From positions 1 to 43,860 of the forward strand of contig VGGV01000019.1 in assembly GCA_016868455.1 (NCBI GenBank): a stretch of DNA of 43,860 nucleotides, written 5' to 3'. The position numbers and the translations under genes are program-made. Source of the DNA: Bacteroidota bacterium (GTDB lineage Bacteria; Bacteroidota; Bacteroidia; Chitinophagales; Chitinophagaceae). The notes under the pieces were generated by a model. It was not told where the DNA came from, did no database searches, and was given only the letters and a program-made list of their open reading frames with translations. Positions 22,132-43,347 of the stretch are shown in pieces. Every line of letters starts with the position of its first letter. Within the stretch, counting starts at the first letter, position 1.

Positions 22132-22233
22132 GTTTATTGAACCCAGTTGGGGTTCAGTTTGTTCATTCACTATCTTCCCTGCCCCGCATTCGGCGGGACG
22201 GGGTTATTAATATTGAATCCCTCCGGGATTCAG
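22132..22233. repeat. REP-like composite (three hairpins), left copy near RAYT 1
   Basis: Hairpin ACCC-AGTTG-GGGT after TTTATTGA, then a CCCCGC-centred hairpin (22182-22203), then TTATTAATATT and TCCCTCCGGGA. The same order recurs at 22861-22956 in direct orientation, with the same TTATTAATATT linker. Confidence 0.8.
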
Positions 22234-22310: not shown

Positions 22311-22403
22311 TAAGCCCGAAGGGCTTAAATTTGAATAACTCCGGGTGAAACCCGGAGAGAAAGATACAACCCGGACAAAACAACCCCGAAGGGGTTGAAT
22401 AAA
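22311..22403. repeat. REP-like composite (three hairpins) directly upstream of RAYT 1
   Basis: TAAGCCC-GAA-GGGCTTA (22311-22327), CTCCGGGT-GAA-ACCCGGAG (22339-22357) and AACCCC-GAA-GGGGTT (22382-22396). Loop-to-loop distances are 29 and 41 bp, against 29 and 42 bp in the RAYT-free element at 43238. The last hairpin plus GAATAAA is an inverted copy (21 of 22) of the one just after the RAYT gene. Bases 22234-22310 hold nothing I can name. Confidence 0.8.
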
Positions 22404-22412
22404 TTAGCCACT

Positions 22413-22859
22413 ATGCGTACCTATACACAAATTCTTTATCAGATTGTCTTTAGCACAAAGCACAGGGAACAAGTACTGCAAAAAGAAAACAGGTCAGGGC
22501 TTTTTAAATATATCGGGGGCATTTTAAATAAAAGCAACTGCCATCTGTACCGTATGAATGGCGTAGAAGACCATCTGCATATCCTGACACATCTCCATCC
22601 CTCAATAGCGCTGGCTGATTTGATAAAGAATATTAAAATAGCAAGCTCAGGTTTTATAAAAGATAATGGACTCTTTAAAGGCTTTACCGGCTGGCAGGAT
22701 GGTTATGGCGCATTTGCTTATGCAATCTCAGAAAAATCAAGATTGATTGAGTATGTGAAAAACCAGGAAGAACATCATAAAACAATTTCATTTCGTGATG
22801 AATACATTGAGTTACTAAAGGAACATGAGATTGAGTTTGATGAAAAGCATCTGCTCTGA
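22413..22859 (+). CDS. REP-associated tyrosine transposase (RAYT 1)
   Basis: A 148-residue Y1/HUH single-strand nuclease of the IS200/IS605-like superfamily. The metal motif is HLH at residues 54-56 (VEDHLHIL), and the likely nucleophile is Tyr114 in LIEYVKNQEEHH, the RAYT-type context. FTGWQDGYGAFAYA is also typical. Such proteins nick single-stranded REP hairpins and are usually domesticated, not classical insertion sequences. ATG at 22413 is preferred over an upstream in-frame codon at 22395 that would lie inside the hairpin flank. The gene is bracketed by inverted hairpin repeats (22382-22403 and 22861-22882). Confidence 0.92.
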   Translation: MRTYTQILYQIVFSTKHREQVLQKENRSGLFKYIGGILNKSNCHLYRMNGVEDHLHILTHLHPSIALADLIKNIKIASSGFIKDNGLFKGFTGWQDGYGAFAYAISEKSRLIEYVKNQEEHHKTISFRDEYIELLKEHEIEFDEKHLL

Positions 22860-22860
22860 A

Positions 22861-22956
22861 TTTATTGAACCCCTTCGGGGTTCTGTTCACTATTGTTGCT
22901 TTTTCCCCCGCATTATATGCGGGGTTATTAATATTTAATCCCTTCGGGATTCTTAA
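22861..22956. repeat. REP-like composite (three hairpins) directly downstream of RAYT 1
   Basis: AACCCC-TTC-GGGGTT hairpin starting 9 bp after the RAYT stop, then CCCCGCAT-TAT-ATGCGGGG (22906-22924), TTATTAATATT and TCCCTTCGGGA. It is a direct repeat of 22132-22233, and its first hairpin is an inverted copy of the one upstream of RAYT 1. Confidence 0.8.
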
Positions 22957-34006: not shown

Positions 34007-35374
34007 ATGAGTACAAAAACAATCCCGATAGCTATCGGGACAGAAGCACAGGAGATAATTCAGAATAACCTGGATTATACTTTGTTCTCCTGGTCCAAAC
34101 AAAAAGGCATCGCCCCTATCGCCGTAAAAAATGCCGAAGGCGTGTACCTCTACGACTATGATGGCAAACGCTATATTGATTTTTCGTCGGGACTGATGAA
34201 TGTCAATATCGGTCATGGCAACCAGCGGGTAACGGATGCCGTGGTAAAACAAATGCAGGAAGTGGCTTACGTTACGCCCAGCTGTGTGACCAAAGTAAGA
34301 GGCGAAATGGGAAAGAAGATTGCATCCATCACACCGAAGGGTTTGAAAAAAACTTTGTTCACTCTTTGCGGGGCTTCGGCTATTGACAATGCGATTAAAC
34401 TGGCGAGACTTTATACAGGCCGTCATAAGATCATTGCGAAGTACCGGGCTTTTCATGGTGCGTCATACGGCGCCATGACTGCCGGTGGTGACCCGAGAAA
34501 ATTAGCTGCTGACTCACAGCAAATGCCCAATGTGGTGCATGTGGAAGATCCATATTGCTATCGCTGCCCTTTTGGGCAGACATTTGGCTCCTGCAAATAT
34601 GAATGTGCCAGTCATGTAGAAAGGGTGATTCAGTTTGAAGGCCCCGAGAATGTTGCCGCAATATTGATGGAAGGTGAAAGCGGTTCTTCCGGTTGCATAA
34701 AATATCCGCCGGATTATATGAAGAAGATCAGGGCTATTTGCGATAAATACGGTATCCTGCTGATAGTGGATGAAGTAATGAGCGGATTTGGCCGCTGCGG
34801 CAAATGGTTTGGAATAGATAATCATGGTGTAGTGCCGGATATGATTGCGACGGCAAAAGGAATCACATCAGGCTATGTGCCACTGGGCGCATTGATTGTG
34901 TCTGACAAAATCGCCGCCCATTTTGATGACAGGGTGCTGTGGCTGGGCCTCACCTACTCTGCCCACCCGGTTAGCCTCGCAGCCGGCATGGAAGTATTGA
35001 AAATTTATGAAGATGAAAATATGTTCGCTAATGCCGTGGCAATGGGGAAATATGTAGAAGAGCAGGTGGAAAAGCTGAAACAAAAACATCCCAGCATTGG
35101 TGATTTCAGGAATACAGGTTTGTTAGGTTGTATTGAACTGGTGAAAAACAGGGCAACCAAAGAACCGATGGCGCCATTTAATGCAAAGCCTGATGAAATG
35201 GCCGTGATGAATAAAGTAGCGGCAAGGATCAAAGATCTGGGCATGTACACATTTGTTCGGTGGAATTACATTTTTGTAGCGCCACCGCTTTGTGTAACTA
35301 AGGAGCAAATTGATGAAGGGCTGAATATAATTAGTGAGGCCATCGCCATTGCTGACCAAAATATGATTCCGTAG
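34007..35374 (+). CDS. class III aminotransferase, probable beta-alanine aminotransferase
   Basis: A 455-residue PLP enzyme of fold type I, class III. Seen: DFSSGLMNVNIGHGN, AFHGASYGAMTAGGDPRK, IVDEVMSGFGRCGKW and the Schiff-base lysine K284 in IATAKGITSGYVPLGA. A CxxC...CxxxC stretch (DPYCYRCPFG, SCKYEC; residues 184-200) is also found in some relatives. In this cluster, between mmsA and dihydropyrimidinase, the natural substrate is beta-alanine, giving malonate semialdehyde with pyruvate or 2-oxoglutarate; this is inferred from context. Residues 6-11 (IPIAIG) are encoded by an 18-bp palindrome just before the conserved IIQNNLDYTLFSWS, apparently an in-frame insertion. Confidence 0.9.
   Translation: MSTKTIPIAIGTEAQEIIQNNLDYTLFSWSKQKGIAPIAVKNAEGVYLYDYDGKRYIDFSSGLMNVNIGHGNQRVTDAVVKQMQEVAYVTPSCVTKVRGEMGKKIASITPKGLKKTLFTLCGASAIDNAIKLARLYTGRHKIIAKYRAFHGASYGAMTAGGDPRKLAADSQQMPNVVHVEDPYCYRCPFGQTFGSCKYECASHVERVIQFEGPENVAAILMEGESGSSGCIKYPPDYMKKIRAICDKYGILLIVDEVMSGFGRCGKWFGIDNHGVVPDMIATAKGITSGYVPLGALIVSDKIAAHFDDRVLWLGLTYSAHPVSLAAGMEVLKIYEDENMFANAVAMGKYVEEQVEKLKQKHPSIGDFRNTGLLGCIELVKNRATKEPMAPFNAKPDEMAVMNKVAARIKDLGMYTFVRWNYIFVAPPLCVTKEQIDEGLNIISEAIAIADQNMIP
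34023..34040. repeat. 18-bp palindrome, copy 4 of 4 (in aminotransferase N-terminus)
   Basis: TCCCGATAGCTATCGGGA, perfect palindrome starting 17 bp after the A of the start codon, read as Pro-Ile-Ala-Ile-Gly. The outer pair is T/A here and A/T in the other three copies, so the dyad is kept while the base changes. Confidence 0.85.
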
Positions 35375-35415
35375 CAGTCAGATATATATTGAAAAGAAGA
35401 ATAGATGAAAGTCAC

Positions 35416-35481
35416 AACTCCGCAGGAGTTGACTATTTATAGAATGAAATATAAGTGAATACCCCAACCCGGTAAGGGTTG
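35416..35481. repeat. REP-like hairpins H1 and H2 upstream of RAYT 2
   Basis: H1 AACTCC-GCA-GGAGTT (35416-35430), 34-bp AT-rich spacer, H2 CAACCC-GGTAA-GGGTTG (35465-35481). The RAYT-free element at 41682 has the same two stems in the same order with an identical 34-bp spacer length. Confidence 0.8.
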
Positions 35482-35497
35482 AACCAATAAAAATAAA

Positions 35498-35998
35498 ATG
35501 CCGAATACATACACCCAATTATACATTCAGTTTGTATTCGCCGTTAAATGGCGGGAAAGTCTCATTCAAAAATCCTGGAAAGATGATTTATATAAATACA
35601 TAACAGGTATTGTTCAAAATAATAAAAGCAAGATGCTGGCAATAAACGGTATGCCCGACCACATTCACATATTTATTGGCTATAAACCTTCTGTTGCTAT
35701 CCCCGATTTAATAAAAGATATAAAAGTTGCCAGCAGTTTATGGATTAATGAAAAAAAGCTGGTTAAGGGAAAATTTAACTGGCAGGAAGGTTATGGCGCT
35801 TTCTCCTACAGGCTGAGGGATATTGATGAGATTTGCAGATATATTCAAAATCAGGAATCACATCATCATAAAAAATCGTTCAGGCAGGAATATATTGAAT
35901 TATTGAAAGACTTTTCGGTTGAATATGAAGATAGATACCTGTTTGAGTTTTTTGATGAGGTATATTCAACTCCTCCGGAGTTGGAAAATCAAAAATAA
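35498..35998 (+). CDS. REP-associated tyrosine transposase (RAYT 2)
   Basis: A 166-residue HUH/Y1 nuclease, clearly homologous to RAYT 1 (shared TYTQ start, DLIKDIKVASS, WQEGYGAFSY, QEYIELLKD). Metal motif HIH at residues 55-57 and probable nucleophile Tyr115 in ICRYIQNQESHHH. Its last ten residues (STPPELENQK) are not conserved and are encoded by a REP hairpin (35967-35983), so the repeat has become part of the gene. It interrupts the pyrimidine locus between the aminotransferase and the transporter. Full-length and apparently intact; ATG at 35498. Confidence 0.92.
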   Translation: MPNTYTQLYIQFVFAVKWRESLIQKSWKDDLYKYITGIVQNNKSKMLAINGMPDHIHIFIGYKPSVAIPDLIKDIKVASSLWINEKKLVKGKFNWQEGYGAFSYRLRDIDEICRYIQNQESHHHKKSFRQEYIELLKDFSVEYEDRYLFEFFDEVYSTPPELENQK

Positions 35999-36034
35999 CT
36001 TATAGTACTATAGAGATTTGTCTCCTGCGGAGAC
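35967..36034. repeat. REP-like hairpins H2' and H3 at the 3' end of RAYT 2
   Basis: CAACTCC-TCC-GGAGTTG (35967-35983) inside the RAYT coding region, 36-bp spacer, GTCTCC-TGC-GGAGAC (36020-36034). The element at 41682-41801 has the matching pair with exactly the same 36-bp spacer, ending ATTT before the GTC stem in both. Confidence 0.8.
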
Positions 36035-36052
36035 CACAAAAACAAAAGAAAC

Positions 36053-37546
36053 TTGAAGAGCAAAGAGCAGTATATAATCTCAGAGCCTAAAACTTTCTCC
36101 CCGGGGGGTAATGGGGCCATGGAATTTTCCCCCCTGTACAACGAAGACCTAGCCCCGGTTCCGCCCGAAAAAAGAACCTGGAACAAATGGCATATAGCTG
36201 CATTGTGGATTGGTATGGCGGTTTGTATTCCCACTTATATGCTGGCAAGCAGTCTCATCAACCAGGGGATGAACTGGTGGCAGGCCCTTATCACCATCCT
36301 GTTGGGAAATGTCATTGTTTTAATTCCGATGATCCTGAATGCACATGTTGGAACTAAATACGGAGTGCCGCTTCCTGTTTTTCTGAGAATGAGTTTTGGC
36401 ATTAAAGGTTCCGTTCTTGCATCACTGCTCAGAGGATTGGTAGCCTGCGGCTGGTTTGGCATACAAACATGGATTGGCGGTGCCGCTATTTACCAGTTGC
36501 TGGCGGTAATGTTTCCGTCGATGGCAGCTACACCTTTCCTTGGTGATTTTATCGGACTTAACCTGGCACAGGCTCTTTGTTTTTTATTTTTCTGGTTCAT
36601 CAATATCTGGATCGTTTATCGGGGCATTGACTCCATTAAAAAATTAGAAGCATGGTCGGCTCCGTTTTTATTACTGATCGGACTTTGTCTCTTACTATGG
36701 GCCTGGTTCAGGGTGGGCTCCCTAAAAGATATACTGAATGCATCTTATACGCTTTCTTCTCAAAACAATGTTGACTTCGGGCAAATATTCTTCCCCGGTT
36801 TAACCGCTATGGTTGGCTTTTGGGCAACGCTGTCATTAAATATTCCCGACTTTACCCGTTATGCTAAATCGCAGAAAGACCAGGCTATGGGGCAATTGAT
36901 TGGATTGCCCCCCACCATGGTTTTCTATTCTTTTATCGGCATTGCTGTTACCAGTGCAACAGTTTTATTGTATGGCGAAGCTATCTGGGATCCCGTTGTA
37001 TTGATGGGAAAATTTGAATCACCGGTAGTAGTTATTATATCAATGCTCGGCCTGACTATTGCAACCCTTTCCACCAACATTGCAGCCAATGTGGTGGCGC
37101 CGGCAAATGGCTTCTCTAACATGGCCCCTAAGAAGATCAGTTTTAGAATGGGCGGCTATTTAACCGGCATTATTGGAATATTGATTTTCCCATGGAAGCT
37201 GATTGCCGATCCGCAGGGATATATCTTTCGCTGGCTTATTGCTTATTCAGCATTGCTTGGCGCCATGGCCGGCATTATGATTTGTGATTATTATCTTATA
37301 AGAAAAACAAAGATCAGTGTAACAGAATTATTTAACCCTGATGGTCCGTACAAAGGGTGGAATACCCCGGCATGGATCGCTTTTGTGGTCAGCCTACTCC
37401 CTGTTATTCCCGGATTTCTAATTGCAGTGGGTGTAAGCAACCCTGTGGCTTTCCCTGCTTTTTTCAATAACTTGTATTCTTATGCATGGTTTGTGACATT
37501 CTTTTTATCATTTATTATTTATTGGTTGATAGCCGGAAAAAAATAA
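36053..37546 (+). CDS. NCS1-family nucleobase:cation symporter
   Basis: A 497-residue membrane transporter with about twelve helices of the NCS1 (Mhp1/PucI/FurE) family that imports uracil, allantoin, hydantoins or thiamine. Seen: WNKWHIAALWIGMAVCIPTYM (helix 1 with the family motif), an ASLLRGLVACGWFGIQTWIG block, SLNIPDFTRYAKSQKDQ and LSTNIAANVVAPANGFSNM. In this locus uracil or thymine is the most plausible substrate. The start is TTG at 36053, since no ATG precedes the charged N-terminus; the next ATG (codon 23) is an alternative. Hairpin H3 of the RAYT 2 repeat ends 18 bp before it. Confidence 0.9.
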   Translation: MKSKEQYIISEPKTFSPGGNGAMEFSPLYNEDLAPVPPEKRTWNKWHIAALWIGMAVCIPTYMLASSLINQGMNWWQALITILLGNVIVLIPMILNAHVGTKYGVPLPVFLRMSFGIKGSVLASLLRGLVACGWFGIQTWIGGAAIYQLLAVMFPSMAATPFLGDFIGLNLAQALCFLFFWFINIWIVYRGIDSIKKLEAWSAPFLLLIGLCLLLWAWFRVGSLKDILNASYTLSSQNNVDFGQIFFPGLTAMVGFWATLSLNIPDFTRYAKSQKDQAMGQLIGLPPTMVFYSFIGIAVTSATVLLYGEAIWDPVVLMGKFESPVVVIISMLGLTIATLSTNIAANVVAPANGFSNMAPKKISFRMGGYLTGIIGILIFPWKLIADPQGYIFRWLIAYSALLGAMAGIMICDYYLIRKTKISVTELFNPDGPYKGWNTPAWIAFVVSLLPVIPGFLIAVGVSNPVAFPAFFNNLYSYAWFVTFFLSFIIYWLIAGKK

Positions 37547-37552
37547 ATTAAC

Positions 37553-38932
37553 ATGTCTGTCCTGATTAAGAACGGAAGAATCATTACCGCTGATGCGGAC
37601 TATGTGGCCGATATTTTTACTGAAGGCGAACAAATAAAAACCATTGGCAAAAACTTAAACCTAACTGCTGATAAAGAAATTGACGCCTCCGGCAAACTCG
37701 TTTTCCCCGGCGGTATTGACCCGCATGTGCATTTGGATATGCCTTTCATGGGAACTTATTCTTCAGATAATTATGAAACAGGAACAAGGGCTGCATTGTT
37801 TGGCGGCACAACAATGGTGATTGATTTTATTTTGCAGAAACAAGGCAACTCATTACAGGCTGCACTGGATGAATGGCGAGGAAGAAGCAACGGCAACTGT
37901 GTTGGCGATTACAGCTTTCACATGGCTGTCACTGACTTTAATGACAACACCAAAAAAGAAATACAGGGTCTGATAGAAAAAGAAGGTATCGTTTCCTTCA
38001 AAACATTTATGGCCTATAAAGGCGCTCTGATGATTGACGACCGCCAGATGATCGGCCTGATGGAAGAAGTAAAAAAACACGGCGGCCTAATCAATGTACA
38101 TGCCACCAACGGCGATATGATTGATTACCTGGTGGCAAAACACAGAAGCGAAGGCAAACTCTCCCCTCTTTATCATTGTTTATCACAACCGGAGATAACA
38201 GAAGCCGAAGCGGCCGAACGGTTTGTGGATATGAGTTATTATACCGGTTGCCCGGGTTATATCGTACACCTCACCTGCGAAGGCGCATTGAATGCGGTAC
38301 GCAATGCGACAAGAAGAAATCAGAAAACATTTGTGGAGACCTGCATTCAGTATTTAATCATTGATGCATCATTATACGAAAGAGAAGATGGCTCCAAATG
38401 GGTAATGAGCCCTCCCCTGCGGGAAAAGAAAGACCAGGAAACATTATGGGCCGGTATCAACCAGGGACTGGTACAGGTTGTTGCCACCGACCACTGTCCT
38501 TTTAAATGGGAGCAGAAACTGATGGGCAAAGATGATTTCAGTAAAATACCGAATGGTCACCCCGCCATTGAGAACAGAATGGAACTTTTATACAGTGAAG
38601 GAGTGGGCAAAGGAAGAATCACTTTAAACAAATATGTGGAAGTGGCCTGCACCAACCCGGCGAAAATATTCGGCATGTTTCCCCGCAAAGGAACGATTGC
38701 TGTGGGCAGCGATGCGGACATTATGATTTTTGACCCCAATGAAAAACATATCATCTCCGCCAAAGCCCATCACATGAATGTTGACTACAGCGGCTACGAG
38801 GGCTGGGAACTGACGGGGAAAGTGAAAACAGTTTTACTGAGAGGCAAAGTAGCTATTGAAAATAATCATTGCAAGATTGACAGAGGTTTTGGTAAATTTA
38901 TAAAGCGGAAAAAGGTCTTTCAAAATATTTAG
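37553..38932 (+). CDS. hydA: dihydropyrimidinase
   Basis: A 459-residue cyclic amidohydrolase that opens 5,6-dihydrouracil to N-carbamoyl-beta-alanine (and dihydrothymine likewise). The binuclear zinc site is visible: H58 and H60 (GIDPHVHLD), the carbamylated lysine K150 (SFKTFMAYKG), and downstream His and Asp (INVHATNGD, IVHLTCEGA, VATDHCPF). The dihydropyrimidinase-specific SPPLREKKDQ and PNGHPAIENRMELL segments favour this over hydantoinase, allantoinase or dihydroorotase. It starts 6 bp after the transporter and the two are surely co-transcribed. The next gene, an esterase, breaks the usual adjacency with beta-ureidopropionase. Confidence 0.95.
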   Translation: MSVLIKNGRIITADADYVADIFTEGEQIKTIGKNLNLTADKEIDASGKLVFPGGIDPHVHLDMPFMGTYSSDNYETGTRAALFGGTTMVIDFILQKQGNSLQAALDEWRGRSNGNCVGDYSFHMAVTDFNDNTKKEIQGLIEKEGIVSFKTFMAYKGALMIDDRQMIGLMEEVKKHGGLINVHATNGDMIDYLVAKHRSEGKLSPLYHCLSQPEITEAEAAERFVDMSYYTGCPGYIVHLTCEGALNAVRNATRRNQKTFVETCIQYLIIDASLYEREDGSKWVMSPPLREKKDQETLWAGINQGLVQVVATDHCPFKWEQKLMGKDDFSKIPNGHPAIENRMELLYSEGVGKGRITLNKYVEVACTNPAKIFGMFPRKGTIAVGSDADIMIFDPNEKHIISAKAHHMNVDYSGYEGWELTGKVKTVLLRGKVAIENNHCKIDRGFGKFIKRKKVFQNI

Positions 38933-39054
38933 TCATTAAAGTTGATTATTTCATGAACCTATGCTTCTTTAAAACGGCAAGATAAAATTGAGCATCATTT
39001 TTTCCCTTTTTCATTCAGACTAATTTAAAATGTTATAACCACTACTTTTAAATC

Positions 39055-40764
39055 ATGTATAAAAAATTTCTCTTAATTACTTTCTTATTTGTTGCTGGCG
39101 TTTCCAATGCCCAAACATTTCGTATTCAAATTGCTTCCCAATTAAATGAGAACGCATTAGATGGTAGGCTGCTATTATTAATTTCTAAAAATAATAGCAA
39201 AGAACCCAGGTTTCAAATAAGTGATGCAACCAATACTCAAATGGTTTTTGGCAAGGATATAGAAAACTGGCACAGCGGTTCATCTCAAATAATGAGTGAA
39301 GAAGCATTTGGATACCCTATTGAAAGGATCAGTAATATTCCAGCAGGAGATTATTATGTGCAGGTACTATTACACAAGTATGAAACTTTTAAATTAAAAA
39401 CCGGTCACACGGTTAAGTTGCCAATGGACAGAGGCGAAGGTCAGCACTGGAATCAAGCGCCGGGAAATATTTATTCCACCCCTGTAAAGATTTATATCGA
39501 TCCAAAGGCATCCAATGAAATATCCATTACTATCGATAAAATAATTCCTCCCATAAAGGAGCCTGATGATACGAAGTACATCAAACACATAAAAATACAA
39601 AGCAAGTTACTCACCGAATTTTGGGGAAGGCCTATGTTCATTGGTGCACATGTACTACTACCAGAAGGCTTCGATAGCCATCTAACCGTAAAATATCCGC
39701 TGGCCATTTTTCATGGTCATTTTCCAACAGACTTTGGCGGGTTTCGTACCACAATGCCTGATCCGAAATTAATACCTGATACAAATGACCGCTTTAGAAT
39801 CACAGGATATAACATCATTCAACAGCAAGAAGCATATGATTTTTATAAACAATGGACCGGACCCGGCTTTCCGAGAGTGATAGCTGTAGAAATTCAACAT
39901 GCCAATCCTTATTATGATGATTCGTATGCCGTGAACTCTGCTAACCTGGGGCCATATGGCGATGCGATTACCTATGAATTGATACCAGAAATAGAAAAAC
40001 ATTTTCGTGGCATTGGACAAGGCTGGGCCAGATTCCTTTATGGCGGATCCACCGGAGGATGGGAAGCATTGGCAGCACAGGTATTTTATCCCGATGAGTA
40101 CAATGGAAGTTATGCGGCTTGTCCTGATCCGATTGACTTTCGTCATTACGTTACTGTTGATATTTATAACGATAAAAATGCCTATTATGTAAAAAGTGAT
40201 TTCAAAACTTTACAGCGACCTGGTCATAGAAATTACCTGGGTCATGTAAGTGCAACTTTGAGAGAAATGAATCATCGGGAACTTGCATTAGGAACTAAAA
40301 GCAGAAGCGGAGATCAGTTTGATATTTGGGAAGCTGTTTTTTCGCCAATGGATAGCGACGGTTATCCAAAACGTATTTATGATAAATATACAGGTGCAAT
40401 TGATACAGCAGTTGCAAGGTATTGGAGGGATAACTATGACCTGACACATATTATAAAGCGAGACTGGCCAAAGTTTGGAGACAAGCTGAAAGGAAAAATT
40501 CATATTTACGTCGGCGATATGGATAACTACTATTTGAATAACGCTGTGTATACTGCCGAAGACATGCTAAAAAAATTGAGCAACCCTTCCTGCCATTGCG
40601 AAGTAACCTTTGGTGACAGGGCAGAACATTGCTGGAACGGTGACCCTACCCTGCCAAACTATATAACCCGTTTACGTTATAATCAAATGTTTATTAAAAA
40701 GTGGGCTGAAGAAATAAAAACAAGAGCCCCTAAAAATGCCGACCTTAAATCATGGAGATATTAG
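39055..40764 (+). CDS. secreted alpha/beta-hydrolase, putative esterase family
   Basis: A 569-residue exported protein with signal peptide (about 1-19, LLITFLFVAGVSNAQ). An N-terminal beta-rich region (about 21-165) precedes an esterase-D-like alpha/beta-hydrolase domain: PLAIFHGHFPTDF, then the nucleophile elbow GGSTGG (Ser332), PDPIDFRHY, and a likely catalytic His in DRAEHCWNGD. Substrate unknown. It lies between hydA and the beta-ureidopropionase gene with AT-rich, hairpin-free spacers of 122 and 53 bp, and its own base composition seems more AT-rich than its neighbours. No obvious role in pyrimidine breakdown; late insertion into the locus is plausible but not proven. Confidence 0.82.
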   Translation: MYKKFLLITFLFVAGVSNAQTFRIQIASQLNENALDGRLLLLISKNNSKEPRFQISDATNTQMVFGKDIENWHSGSSQIMSEEAFGYPIERISNIPAGDYYVQVLLHKYETFKLKTGHTVKLPMDRGEGQHWNQAPGNIYSTPVKIYIDPKASNEISITIDKIIPPIKEPDDTKYIKHIKIQSKLLTEFWGRPMFIGAHVLLPEGFDSHLTVKYPLAIFHGHFPTDFGGFRTTMPDPKLIPDTNDRFRITGYNIIQQQEAYDFYKQWTGPGFPRVIAVEIQHANPYYDDSYAVNSANLGPYGDAITYELIPEIEKHFRGIGQGWARFLYGGSTGGWEALAAQVFYPDEYNGSYAACPDPIDFRHYVTVDIYNDKNAYYVKSDFKTLQRPGHRNYLGHVSATLREMNHRELALGTKSRSGDQFDIWEAVFSPMDSDGYPKRIYDKYTGAIDTAVARYWRDNYDLTHIIKRDWPKFGDKLKGKIHIYVGDMDNYYLNNAVYTAEDMLKKLSNPSCHCEVTFGDRAEHCWNGDPTLPNYITRLRYNQMFIKKWAEEIKTRAPKNADLKSWRY

Positions 40765-40817
40765 AAATAGCATGATAGCTTTTTTTAAATTTAAATTTTA
40801 ACCTACAAACCATTCAT

Positions 40818-41684
40818 ATGCCAAGAATCATTAAGTCAGGCCTTATACAACTCTCCCTTCCAAAAACAGAAGGCGAAGGCACCATCGAAGAAATAAAAGA
40901 AGCCATGGTGCAAAAACATATTCCCATGATTGAAGAAGCGGGAAAGAAAGGTGTGCAGATACTTTGTATGCAGGAAATTTTCAACACACCCTACTTCTGC
41001 CCCGGGCAAGACAAAGCCTGGTATGAAAGTGCAGAAACTGTTCCCGGCCCCACAGTGGAACGTATGCAGGAATATGCAAAGAAGTATCAAATGGTGATGA
41101 TTGTTCCGATGTATGAAAAAGAACAGGCCGGTGTTTTATATAATACTGCGGCAGTGATTGATGCCGATGGAACATATTTGGGCAAATACAGAAAGAATCA
41201 TATCCCCCACACATCCGGTTTCTGGGAAAAGTTTTTCTTTAAGCCCGGCAACCTGGGATATCCTGTTTTTCAAACCAAGTATGCAAAAGTAGGTGTGTAT
41301 ATCTGTTATGACCGTCATTTTCCCGATGGCGCAAGATGTTTGGGATTGAACGGCGCTGAAATTGTTTACAATCCTTCGGCAACAGTAGCTGGTCTTTCTC
41401 AATATTTGTGGAAACTGGAACAGCCTGCACATGCTGCGGCCAATGGATATTTCATGGGTTGCATCAACCGGGTAGGTTATGAAAAACCATGGAACCTGGG
41501 TAAGTTTTATGGCAGCAGTTATTTTGTTGATCCCCGCGGACAGATTTTTGCTCAGGCATCGGACGATAATGATGAATTATTAATTGCAGATTTTGATTTG
41601 GATATGATCGAAGAAGTTAGGGCAACCTGGCAATTCTTCCGCGACAGAAGACCGGAGACGTATGGAAGGCTCGTTGAACTCTAA
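40818..41684 (+). CDS. beta-ureidopropionase (N-carbamoyl-beta-alanine amidohydrolase)
   Basis: A 288-residue nitrilase-superfamily enzyme with the Glu-Lys-Cys triad: E53 (MQEIFNTPYF), K126 (YRKNHIPH), C163 (VYICYDRHFP). The branch containing the eukaryotic-type beta-ureidopropionases and N-carbamoylputrescine amidases shares these motifs. Context (dihydropyrimidinase upstream, PreT/PreA downstream) points to hydrolysis of N-carbamoyl-beta-alanine to beta-alanine, CO2 and ammonia; on sequence alone carbamoylputrescine remains an alternative. The stop codon overlaps hairpin H1 of the element at 41682. ATG at 40818. Confidence 0.9.
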   Translation: MPRIIKSGLIQLSLPKTEGEGTIEEIKEAMVQKHIPMIEEAGKKGVQILCMQEIFNTPYFCPGQDKAWYESAETVPGPTVERMQEYAKKYQMVMIVPMYEKEQAGVLYNTAAVIDADGTYLGKYRKNHIPHTSGFWEKFFFKPGNLGYPVFQTKYAKVGVYICYDRHFPDGARCLGLNGAEIVYNPSATVAGLSQYLWKLEQPAHAAANGYFMGCINRVGYEKPWNLGKFYGSSYFVDPRGQIFAQASDDNDELLIADFDLDMIEEVRATWQFFRDRRPETYGRLVEL

Positions 41685-41801
41685 ACTCCATAGGAGTTTA
41701 ATCTATATAGAAACGTTATAAGTAATACAGTTCAACCCCGTACGGGGTTGAACATCACATGTTGAAAGTTCTTTTTATAAATATTTGTCCCCTACGGAGA
41801 C
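41682..41801. repeat. RAYT-free REP-like composite (H1-H2-H3)
   Basis: H1 TAAACTCC-ATA-GGAGTTTA (41682-41700, includes a stop codon), H2 a perfect 24-bp palindrome (41730-41753; half-site GTTCAACCCCGT), H3 GTCCCC-TAC-GGAGAC (41787-41801, one mismatch). Core-to-core spacers are 34 and 36 bp, identical to those around RAYT 2. Confidence 0.85.
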
Positions 41802-41818
41802 ATTAAAGACCAAAACAA

Positions 41819-43189
41819 ATGGCAATAGTAAATAACAGATTAACCAAAGAACAATACGAAGCCAACTTCGCCGACATTCACCCGCCGTTTGAAAACATAA
41901 CCGCAGCGCAGGTGGAAGCCAACCGTTGTTTGTTTTGTTATGATGCGCCATGTACCAAGAGCTGCCCCACAAGCATTGATGTTCCAAAATTTATCAAGCA
42001 AATTGTAACAGAAAATATTAAAGGCTCGGCGCATACTATTTTTTCTTCCAACATTATGGGAGCAGGTTGCAGCAAAGTTTGCCCTGTAGAAAAACTATGC
42101 GAAGGAAGTTGTGTATTCAATTTACTGGATGAACCCCCTATTCCTATTGCAAAATTGCAACGCTATTCTACTGAAATGGCAATGGAGAATAACTGGCAAC
42201 TGTTTGAGCGGAAGCCCTCCCCTTTAGGGGATAGGGGGCAGGATGGGGGCAAAGTAGCCGTAGTCGGCGCCGGCTCTGCCGGCCTAAGTTGCGCCCATGT
42301 TCTCTCAAGAGAAGGAATTGATGTAACCATCTTCGAAAAAGAAAGCAAAGGTGGCGGGTTGATGACTTATGGAGTTGCAGCCTATAAAGTCACACCGCAG
42401 TTTTGCGAAGATGAAGTGAACTATATCACCTCTATCGGGGGCATAGAAATAAAATACAACCAGGAACTTGGAAAGGATGTAACTCTTTCGCAATTGAAAA
42501 AAGATTACGACGCCGTTTACCTTGGCATCGGTGTGGGTGTGGCAAGGCAATTGAACATTCCCGGGGAAAAATTAGAAGGCGTGGTGGATGCTATAAAATT
42601 TATCTATGAAATTCGGGCCAATGGATATTCATCGGTTCCCGTTGGAGATAAGGTAGCTGTTATCGGTATGGGCATGACAGCCATTGATGCCGCCACACAA
42701 GCCAAACGCCTCGGTGCAAAACATGTAACAATGGTCTATCGCCGCACCGAAAAAGAAAAACCCTGCACACAGGCTGAACTGGATATGGCTATGCTGGATG
42801 GCTGCGAAGTGATCTGGCTGGCAGCGCCACAAAAAATAAAAGGCGCTGCAGGAAAAGTAAAGCAGCTTGTTTGCAGTGTGATGAAACTCGGCGAACCCGA
42901 TGCCAGTGGCCGCCGCTCCCCTGTTGACACCGGCGAAACATTCACTTTGGATGTGGACATGGTCATCAAAGCAGCGGGACAGGTGCCGTTTGAAAAATTA
43001 ATAAAGAAATCAAGGCTGGATAATAAGAACGGAAAGATTGTTATTAATGAAAACTGTGCGACTAATATCAAAGGCGTCTTCGCCGGTGGGGATGCAGTGA
43101 ATGGTGGAAAGGAAGTAGTGGATGCTGTGCAGGCGGGAAAGGATGGAGCAAAGGCGATTTTGAAATACCTAAACCCCCAAACCCCCTAA
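41819..43189 (+). CDS. preT: dihydropyrimidine dehydrogenase subunit PreT (NAD-dependent)
   Basis: A 456-residue FAD- and Fe-S-containing oxidoreductase of the GltD-like family; with PreA it forms the NAD-linked dihydropyrimidine dehydrogenase reducing uracil and thymine. Eight N-terminal cysteines for two 4Fe-4S clusters are seen: C37, C40, C45, C49 (CLFCYDAPCTKSCP) and C84, C88, C94, C98. The FAD motif is VVGAGSAGLSCAH, the NAD motif VIGMGMTAIDAA. Residues 134-144 (SPLGDRGQDGG) lie between the conserved WQLFE and KVAVVGAG and come from a G-rich repeat inserted in frame (42215-42250). A second repeat supplies the last residues LNPQTP and the stop. preA follows 225 bp downstream. Confidence 0.93.
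   Translation: MAIVNNRLTKEQYEANFADIHPPFENITAAQVEANRCLFCYDAPCTKSCPTSIDVPKFIKQIVTENIKGSAHTIFSSNIMGAGCSKVCPVEKLCEGSCVFNLLDEPPIPIAKLQRYSTEMAMENNWQLFERKPSPLGDRGQDGGKVAVVGAGSAGLSCAHVLSREGIDVTIFEKESKGGGLMTYGVAAYKVTPQFCEDEVNYITSIGGIEIKYNQELGKDVTLSQLKKDYDAVYLGIGVGVARQLNIPGEKLEGVVDAIKFIYEIRANGYSSVPVGDKVAVIGMGMTAIDAATQAKRLGAKHVTMVYRRTEKEKPCTQAELDMAMLDGCEVIWLAAPQKIKGAAGKVKQLVCSVMKLGEPDASGRRSPVDTGETFTLDVDMVIKAAGQVPFEKLIKKSRLDNKNGKIVINENCATNIKGVFAGGDAVNGGKEVVDAVQAGKDGAKAILKYLNPQTP
42215..42250. repeat. G-rich palindromic element inserted in frame in preT
   Basis: Contains CCCCT-TT-AGGGG (42219-42230) and then a run of GGGGGCAGGATGGGGG. On the other strand it resembles the C-rich elements at 24040 and 43168. 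Encodes PSPLGDRGQDGG. Confidence 0.6.
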
Positions 43190-43237: not shown

Positions 43238-43347
43238 GCCCCGTAGGGGCTAAATGTTGGTAGCCCCGGATGAAATCCGGGGTAATGAAAACGAAGAATG
43301 TATTCAGAACCCCGTAGGGGTTCAACATTGATGAATAGCGAACAGAA
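43238..43347. repeat. RAYT-free REP-like composite between preT and preA
   Basis: GCCCC-GTA-GGGGC (43238-43250), CCCCGGAT-GAA-ATCCGGGG (43264-43282), GAACCCC-GTA-GGGGTTC (43307-43323). Loop-to-loop distances 29 and 42 bp match those upstream of RAYT 1 (29 and 41). Bases 43331-43347 resemble the inverted flank found after RAYT 1. The rest of the gap to 43414 holds a GCGAC...GTCGC dyad but no gene. Confidence 0.8.

Follow-up and report, generated by a model that had tools for sequence, protein, structure and literature searches.

The stretch of DNA analysed here, referred to as the window, comprises positions 1 to 43,860 of contig VGGV01000019.1 (43,860 nt; assembly GCA_016868455.1), from a Bacteroidota bacterium of the family Chitinophagaceae. 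It carries RAYT 2, a TnpA-Y1 transposase gene encoding 166 amino acids (35498..35998, plus strand), which a preliminary description had named after the transposases associated with repetitive extragenic palindromes (REPs). RAYT 2 is flanked by short hairpins, and a similar but gene-less set of hairpins, here called the twin, is found 6 kb further along the window.

Hairpin pairs at RAYT 2 and at its twin

The left flank of RAYT 2 holds a unit of two hairpins (H1-H2, 35411..35484) on the minus strand, running outward from the gene. Its outer hairpin, H1 (35415..35431, minus), has the stem CAACTCC/GGAGTTG and is designated B, of left type, while its inner hairpin, H2 (35465..35481, minus; CAACCC/GGGTTG), is designated A and lies 16 nt 5' of the start codon, where an influence on transposase translation is conceivable. 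The right unit (H2'-H3, 35964..36039, plus strand) consists of an inner hairpin A, H2' (35967..35983, plus), and an outer hairpin B of right type, H3 (36020..36034, plus; GTCTCC/GGAGAC). The gene thus stands between two copies of H2, as the preliminary description had it, except that H2' is part of the 3'-terminal coding sequence and is translated as the C-terminal tail of the protein; in two related loci, L011 and L012, the protein match likewise extends through the right hairpin A. In the twin, a left unit (41679..41753, minus) and a right unit (41730..41806, plus) have in common a central hairpin A, H2, with a 10-bp stem (41730..41753, no strand assigned). The outer hairpins are a left-type B (H1, 41682..41700, minus; AAACTCC/GGAGTTT), the stem of which takes in the stop codon of the upstream gene, and a right-type B (H3, 41787..41801) with one mismatched pair, which was read directly from the sequence since, being imperfect, it is absent from the hairpin list.

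Both sets have spacers of 34 and 36 nt (counting H1 as AACTCC/GGAGTT and H2 as CAACCC/GGGTTG), as already described together with the hairpin positions, and the hairpin centres lie 50 and 52 nt apart at RAYT 2 and 50.5 and 52.5 nt apart in the twin. The spacers, earlier described as differing in sequence like the stems, are nevertheless related: all four, read outward from H2, carry a TTCTATAAATATTT-like box ahead of the outer hairpin. When H1-H2 is reversed and laid on H2'-H3, a single pattern emerges, in which hairpin A is followed by a stretch of about 35 nt with TTCTATAAATATTT at its end and then by hairpin B, so that the two are one unit of about 75 nt on opposite strands. Both H1 and H3 being B hairpins, the equal 34 and 36 nt spacings represent one A-B spacer read twice. 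The arrangement at RAYT 2 is accordingly B-A-[gene]-A-B, and that of the twin B-A-B, i.e. two head-to-head units with one common A.

The B hairpins are side-specific, the AAC type occurring in 5/5 reverse units and the GTC/ATC type in 6/6 forward units of the window and of the related loci L011, L012 and L013, in agreement with orientation in all 11 units of the RAYT 2 subfamily; in the twin the left-type and right-type B sit on the same sides as at RAYT 2. Among these 11 units, eight of 13 stem pairs have changed on both sides, with a covariation score of 0.390 compared to 0.161 in shuffles, none of 500 shuffles scoring as high. Folding predicts the twin to form three separate hairpins rather than one long hairpin (z -3.8 and -4.3). 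Structure model R1, whose training set includes the four RAYT 2-type units of the window (the RAYT 2 flanks and the twin halves), gives 72.6 bits for the left and 73.4 bits for the right unit of RAYT 2, and 66.0 and 69.8 bits for the left and right units of the twin. Model R2 draws on 35 right-flank units of related loci only, none of them from the window or from L011-L013, and also finds both twin halves on the expected strands (left 23.3 and right 16.8 bits; E 2e-5 and 0.002).

RAYT 2 and its hairpins probably constitute a REPtron-like element of the TnpA-Y1 (HUH) subclass 1.2, and the twin its gene-less derivative, comparable to a REPIN (a REP doublet forming a hairpin). A relationship between the gene-less twin and the RAYT 2 element had been proposed before, and is supported by the matching sides of the B types. 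The best reading is that the system is of a new type, in which the cognate repeat would be a directly repeated hairpin pair of fixed pitch.

Spacing, polarity and occurrence of the units

Hairpin spacing was measured in the flanks of 94 loci with related transposases, near relatives among them. The centres of neighbouring hairpins are 46-56 nt apart in 78 of the 108 left and 62 of the 91 right pairs, with a peak at 50-52 nt. Sixty dinucleotide shuffles of the same flanks give such pairs almost never (mean 0.1; maximum one on the left and two on the right); spacing by chance was therefore rejected, and the geometry is fixed, as the preliminary description had it. Unit anatomy was derived from 106 units of 82 loci, again including near relatives and chosen for a centre distance of 46-57 nt, for which reason their median is not independent evidence, as the histogram of the 94 loci is. 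Most stems have 5-7 bp and most loops 3 nt, and a box of the CTAYAAA type (CTAY or TAYAAA) precedes B in 91 of the 106 units and A in 12, compared to 12.3 in shuffled B segments. A-B units occur on at least one side of 82 of the loci examined, the left and right A stems match within the locus in 21/24 cases (5.9 when shuffled), and hairpin type requires 17 changes on the protein tree, compared to a shuffled mean of 44.3 and minimum of 38. A further covariation analysis is biased, its units having been selected for perfect stems. The host genomes of the related loci are mostly Bacteroidota, with a few records labelled Ignavibacteria, Nitrospira or Edwardsbacteria.

The units are seen singly, in tandem, and in head-to-head and tail-to-tail pairs. 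The earlier proposal that three hairpins act as one unit is not supported and was rejected, the repeating unit being two hairpins with a direction. It is very unlikely that the B-A-B triplet is what is recognised, the gene having entered the middle hairpin of a triplet that was already there. The equal order and spacing in the twin and the RAYT 2 flanks would fit such an origin, but two-hairpin units are found alone and in tandem, and gene-free modules elsewhere have two A hairpins: six of 16 hand-chosen regions, one of them in the genome of the window (C10:54325-54526, found with R2), are B-A-A-B, the rest being A-B-B-A, single or mixed. Moreover, where genuine three-hairpin units exist, at the second transposase gene RAYT 1, the third hairpin lies within the A-B spacer.

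The strand of the units is tied to the gene. R2 was applied to the best 80 of 134 related transposase loci found and returned 270 matches, of which 262 were used, eight partial ones being omitted. The nearest match in the left flank lies on the minus strand in 68 of the 72 loci with a left match (78 had left sequence), and in 39/42 outside the R2 training loci; in the right flank it lies on the plus strand in 57/59, with 21 of the 80 loci having no right match. R2 also recovers, in register, the flanks of the RAYT 2 orthologues in L011, L012 and L013. Such a polarity, imposed by the transposase gene to its left as well as to its right, is difficult to reconcile with the hairpins being RNA elements, such as intercistronic stem-loops of operons acting in mRNA stability, attenuation or termination, with the transposase gene as a bystander. 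Such a role might be expected from the location of the arrays between co-directional genes and from the closeness of hairpin A to the RAYT 2 start codon, with its possible effect on translation. It is nevertheless unlikely, as gene-free units occur in both orientations, the units track the tree and the presence of the transposase, relatives of the same operon lack the units, and positions 34800-42400 gave no Rfam match at E up to 1. Terminators were rejected in particular, no T tracts following the hairpins as judged by eye.

A survey of 58 genomes, with 83 candidates scored per genome so that counts are lower bounds and absences soft, found units in 17 of the 19 genomes with a strong RAYT 2 homologue (E 1.9e-34 or less), compared to four of the 39 without (Fisher 4e-9). 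When only the 20 genomes of the same genus with at least 2.5 Mb are considered, units are present in 12/12 with the gene and 1/8 without. Layouts in genomes lacking the gene, which the preliminary description had set against its own proposal, do exist, yet are rare, the four genomes having one (G029), two (G057), seven (G038) and seven (G053) units, and the latter two carrying a weaker Y1 homologue. In 12 genomes behind chosen loci, from at least three to at least 145 unit matches were found per genome (150 candidates scored in each). The highest number belongs to Dyadobacter frigoris (L042/G062), which has long tandem ladders of hairpins with a pitch of about 54 nt, while the loci L242-L245 of another genome (G060) are gene-free A-B-B-A modules in which the two B hairpins are always separated by 5-7 nt. 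A nucleotide search of the genome of the window with the twin retrieved the twin itself and weak matches of 15-24 nt only, and structure models are thus needed for detection. With R1, units of the RAYT 2 type are found in this genome only at RAYT 2 and the twin (66-73 bits, the next match reaching 31; 150 of 1603 candidates scored). Two of 72,556 plasmid records contain a homologue at E 1e-15, so that plasmids show no sign of being a major vehicle.

RAYT 1 (22413..22859, plus strand, with ATG 22413 taken as the start) is the second of the two intact Y1 genes of the genome and 44% identical to RAYT 2. The units of RAYT 1 and its relatives contain a third hairpin, M, of 19-23 nt, placed in the A-B spacer immediately ahead of the CTAY box. 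The A-M-B flanks of RAYT 1 are inverted, the left unit (22311..22397, minus strand) reading B-11-M-23-A on the plus strand and the right unit (22867..22951, plus strand) A-22-M-12-B, and a gene-free unit of the same type lies at 43238..43323 (minus strand). Twelve three-hairpin units could be delimited, not counting L106, L213, L217, several flanks with a weaker M and the unit of the window at 22138-22232. Their A and B centres are 65-74 nt apart when M is included, and 46-53 nt (median 51.25) when it is discounted. This is near the 51.0 nt of two-hairpin units, and fits a reading of the distance along folded single-stranded DNA. These distances bear on the possibility that the arrays are double-stranded binding sites in helical phase, comparable to the bacterial interspersed mosaic elements (BIMEs) that are reported to bind gyrase and IHF (PMC2817692), and were merely spread by the transposase in former times. 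A pitch of 51 nt is close to five helical turns, and M is itself about two helical turns long, whereby duplex phasing stays compatible with the RAYT 1-type units. This possibility is nonetheless quite unlikely, as it is with M looped out that the 65-74 nt of the duplex become a median of 51.25 nt, and as the stems are preserved by paired changes.

Probable insertion sites and the possible origin of the twin

The twin is located between a nitrilase-family gene and a gene resembling the small subunit of glutamate synthase. From the operon context we take these to be beta-ureidopropionase and a dihydropyrimidine dehydrogenase subunit, respectively. The gap between them is 137 nt in the window, while in 14/14 other genomes read it is 51-110 nt and without B-A-B, although in three of these the downstream gene is just 40-41% identical; G058 is among the genomes without the twin array, though it carries RAYT 2. 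RAYT 2 itself lies between an aminotransferase gene and an NCS1 transporter gene (open reading frame 36053-37546). In all 16 relatives with both neighbours in the fetched stretch (L191 was excluded, the second neighbour gene being missing) the gene is absent and the gap 7-146 nt, compared to 682 nt in the window, 854 nt in L011 and 767 nt in L012 where it is present. The empty targets anticipated in the preliminary description are thus found at both sites, which, relative to these relatives, look like insertions, while at the RAYT 2 site gene loss in the other relatives may be an alternative. Synonymous divergence was rejected as a clock for RAYT 2, and the insertion is undatable in this way, since fourfold degenerate positions seem to be saturated (identity 15/29 for RAYT 2 and 30-50% for its neighbours). 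The high protein identity in the face of saturated silent sites suggests purifying selection on RAYT 2.

Most likely, the single A of the twin would be the product of a deletion between two A palindromes that faced each other, whether these belonged to a gene-carrying copy or to a B-A-A-B module without the gene. Such a route is mentioned for REPs (PMC3116915, PMC6006769), and a single-palindrome form following a central deletion is mentioned for REPINs (PMC3116915). Solitary units and many arrangements are known, and two of the former might by chance have landed head to head, in which case the twin would be unrelated to RAYT 2 by descent. This is rather improbable, considering that the B types are on the same sides as at RAYT 2, that a single A is common to both halves, and that units of the RAYT 2 type are otherwise absent from the genome among the candidates scored.

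Several observations weigh against the interpretation of RAYT 2 and the twin as a REPtron-like element and its derivative. With just four RAYT 2-type units among the candidates scored in its own genome this copy has not spread, and R1 matches above 60 bits amount to three units in G058 and two in G059. Among gene-free neighbouring units near the transposase genes, the minus-plus order of the twin is the rarest (nine, compared to 48 plus-minus, 26 minus-minus and 20 plus-plus), and a gene-free B-A-A-B module, L240, is predicted to fold into one long hairpin and not into separate ones. Two genomes with a strong homologue have no R2 match, and two with units have no homologue at E 1e-3. R2 misses the RAYT 2 flanks in register, the left match being shifted by one hairpin and the right one partial (11 bits), while R1, which does find them in register, was trained on them. 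Between the window and L011, RAYT 2 is 89.6% and the neighbouring aminotransferase 74.3% identical, whereas between L011 and L012 the values are 79.2% and 88.1%; as these disagree, the history of the gene does not follow that of its neighbour. Finally, both the cleavage and the mobility of the units are inferred.

Transposase class and proposed mechanism

The RAYT 2 protein (P0001) has an intact HUH motif and tyrosine, with DHIH at residue 54, WQ at 95 and YIQNQESHH at 115. The name RAYT is not supported by the protein models: P0001 and P0002 score 28.7 and 21.3 bits against the cut-off of 80 of the NCBIfam model for REP-associated transposases (REP_Tyr_transpos, NF047646), but pass the IS200 model (transpos_IS200, NF033573) with 73.7 and 58.6 bits against a cut-off of 55. 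The motif Y---NP, which defines class 2 TnpA-REP (PMC6006769), is present in none of 82 proteins, whereas Y---Q--HH of subclass 1.2 is found in P0001, P0002 and 80/82 proteins. The nearest solved structures are the IS200-type transposase chains 2xm3 and 2xma, presumably of the ISDra2-type TnpA. The protein therefore fits the TnpA-Y1 subclass 1.2 rather than RAYT/TnpA-REP class 2.

Like the proteobacterial REP/RAYT REPtrons and BIMEs (PMC2817692, PMC3733652, PMC8266576), the loci have a Y1 HUH gene bordered by short palindromes that are inverted and carry a short 5' tag (the inversion being evident from the 68/72 minus matches on the left and 57/59 plus matches on the right), the type of palindrome tracks the transposase, and palindromes are found away from the gene as well. 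They differ in having Y---Q--HH instead of Y---NP and a directly repeated hairpin pair of fixed pitch in each flank, and a GTAG or GTGG tag was not seen at the hairpin foot in the units inspected by eye, where the tags are ATAT, ACAG or other. With REPINs (PMC3116915) they share gene-free inverted doublets, represented by the twin and the six B-A-A-B modules among the 16 chosen regions, and the twin resembles the single-palindrome form; however, each arm comprises two hairpins and not one REP, and the twin is predicted as three separate hairpins. The high copy number of REPINs is not seen among the candidates scored in the genome of the window but in some relatives, with at least 57-145 matches. 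Head-to-head dimers prevail among the GTAG and CGTC REPs described in PMC3733652, and the CGTC-tagged REPs reported there from some Bacteroidetes have stems of 8-9 bp and no associated transposase, unlike the units presented here. Insertion sequences (ISs) of the IS200/IS605 family (IS608, ISDra2) have two hairpins on the same strand with 5' guides that resemble one A-B unit, but carry subterminal hairpins in direct orientation at either end and occur in transposed copies, while the flanks observed here are inverted and two Y1 genes without a transposing copy family are seen. The closest resemblance in protein is to subclass 1.2 (PMC6006769), with Y---Q--HH, WQ, about 150 amino acids, low copy number and, here, a mostly Bacteroidetes distribution. 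In that paper no REP is listed for this subclass, which is said to be generally without typical terminal IS200 structures, whereas A-B units flank 82 of the loci analysed here on at least one side. A search of open-access literature listed no work that describes such units together with subclass 1.2.

By analogy with the TnpA of IS608 and ISDra2, which binds the two subterminal hairpins of the ends (PMC6006769, PMC8266576), and with TnpA-REP, the transposase would bind hairpins A and B on the same strand when that strand is single-stranded, and the short tag ahead of each hairpin would guide the cut. The enzyme could thereby multiply or move units, which may represent a widespread, little described and possibly mobile family of small repeats. 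A more far-reaching possibility, which is put forward tentatively and is perhaps doubtful, is that the A-B unit is itself mobile as a miniature single-strand transposon of about 75 nt. A pair of TnpA would then gauge the A-B distance on folded single-stranded DNA, an inserted third hairpin being looped out and uncounted, and subclass 1.2 genes would be caretakers of the units across Bacteroidota and not ISs, forming a separate branch of single-strand repeat systems beside REP/RAYT. If the two-hairpin units are the substrates, the orphan enzymes of subclass 1.2, which PMC6006769 describes as IS-like but without IS ends or REPs, gain a DNA partner. It would also provide a likely source for part of the intergenic hairpins in a hairpin-rich phylum, and make testable how a single-strand transposase reads the distance between hairpins, with natural third-hairpin variants included.

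A further three-hairpin unit lies upstream of RAYT 1 at 22138-22232, and R2 locates another elsewhere in the genome of the window, at C1:25694. Remnants of Y1 genes are found at C10:76392-76565, with in-frame stops, and at C37:16330-16434 and C43:14917-15021, both scoring below the Pfam cut-off. A palindrome of another kind, CCCGATAGCTATCGGG, is present in four copies in the window (11968, 23196, 24782 and 34023) and recurs near gene-free units on contig C7.

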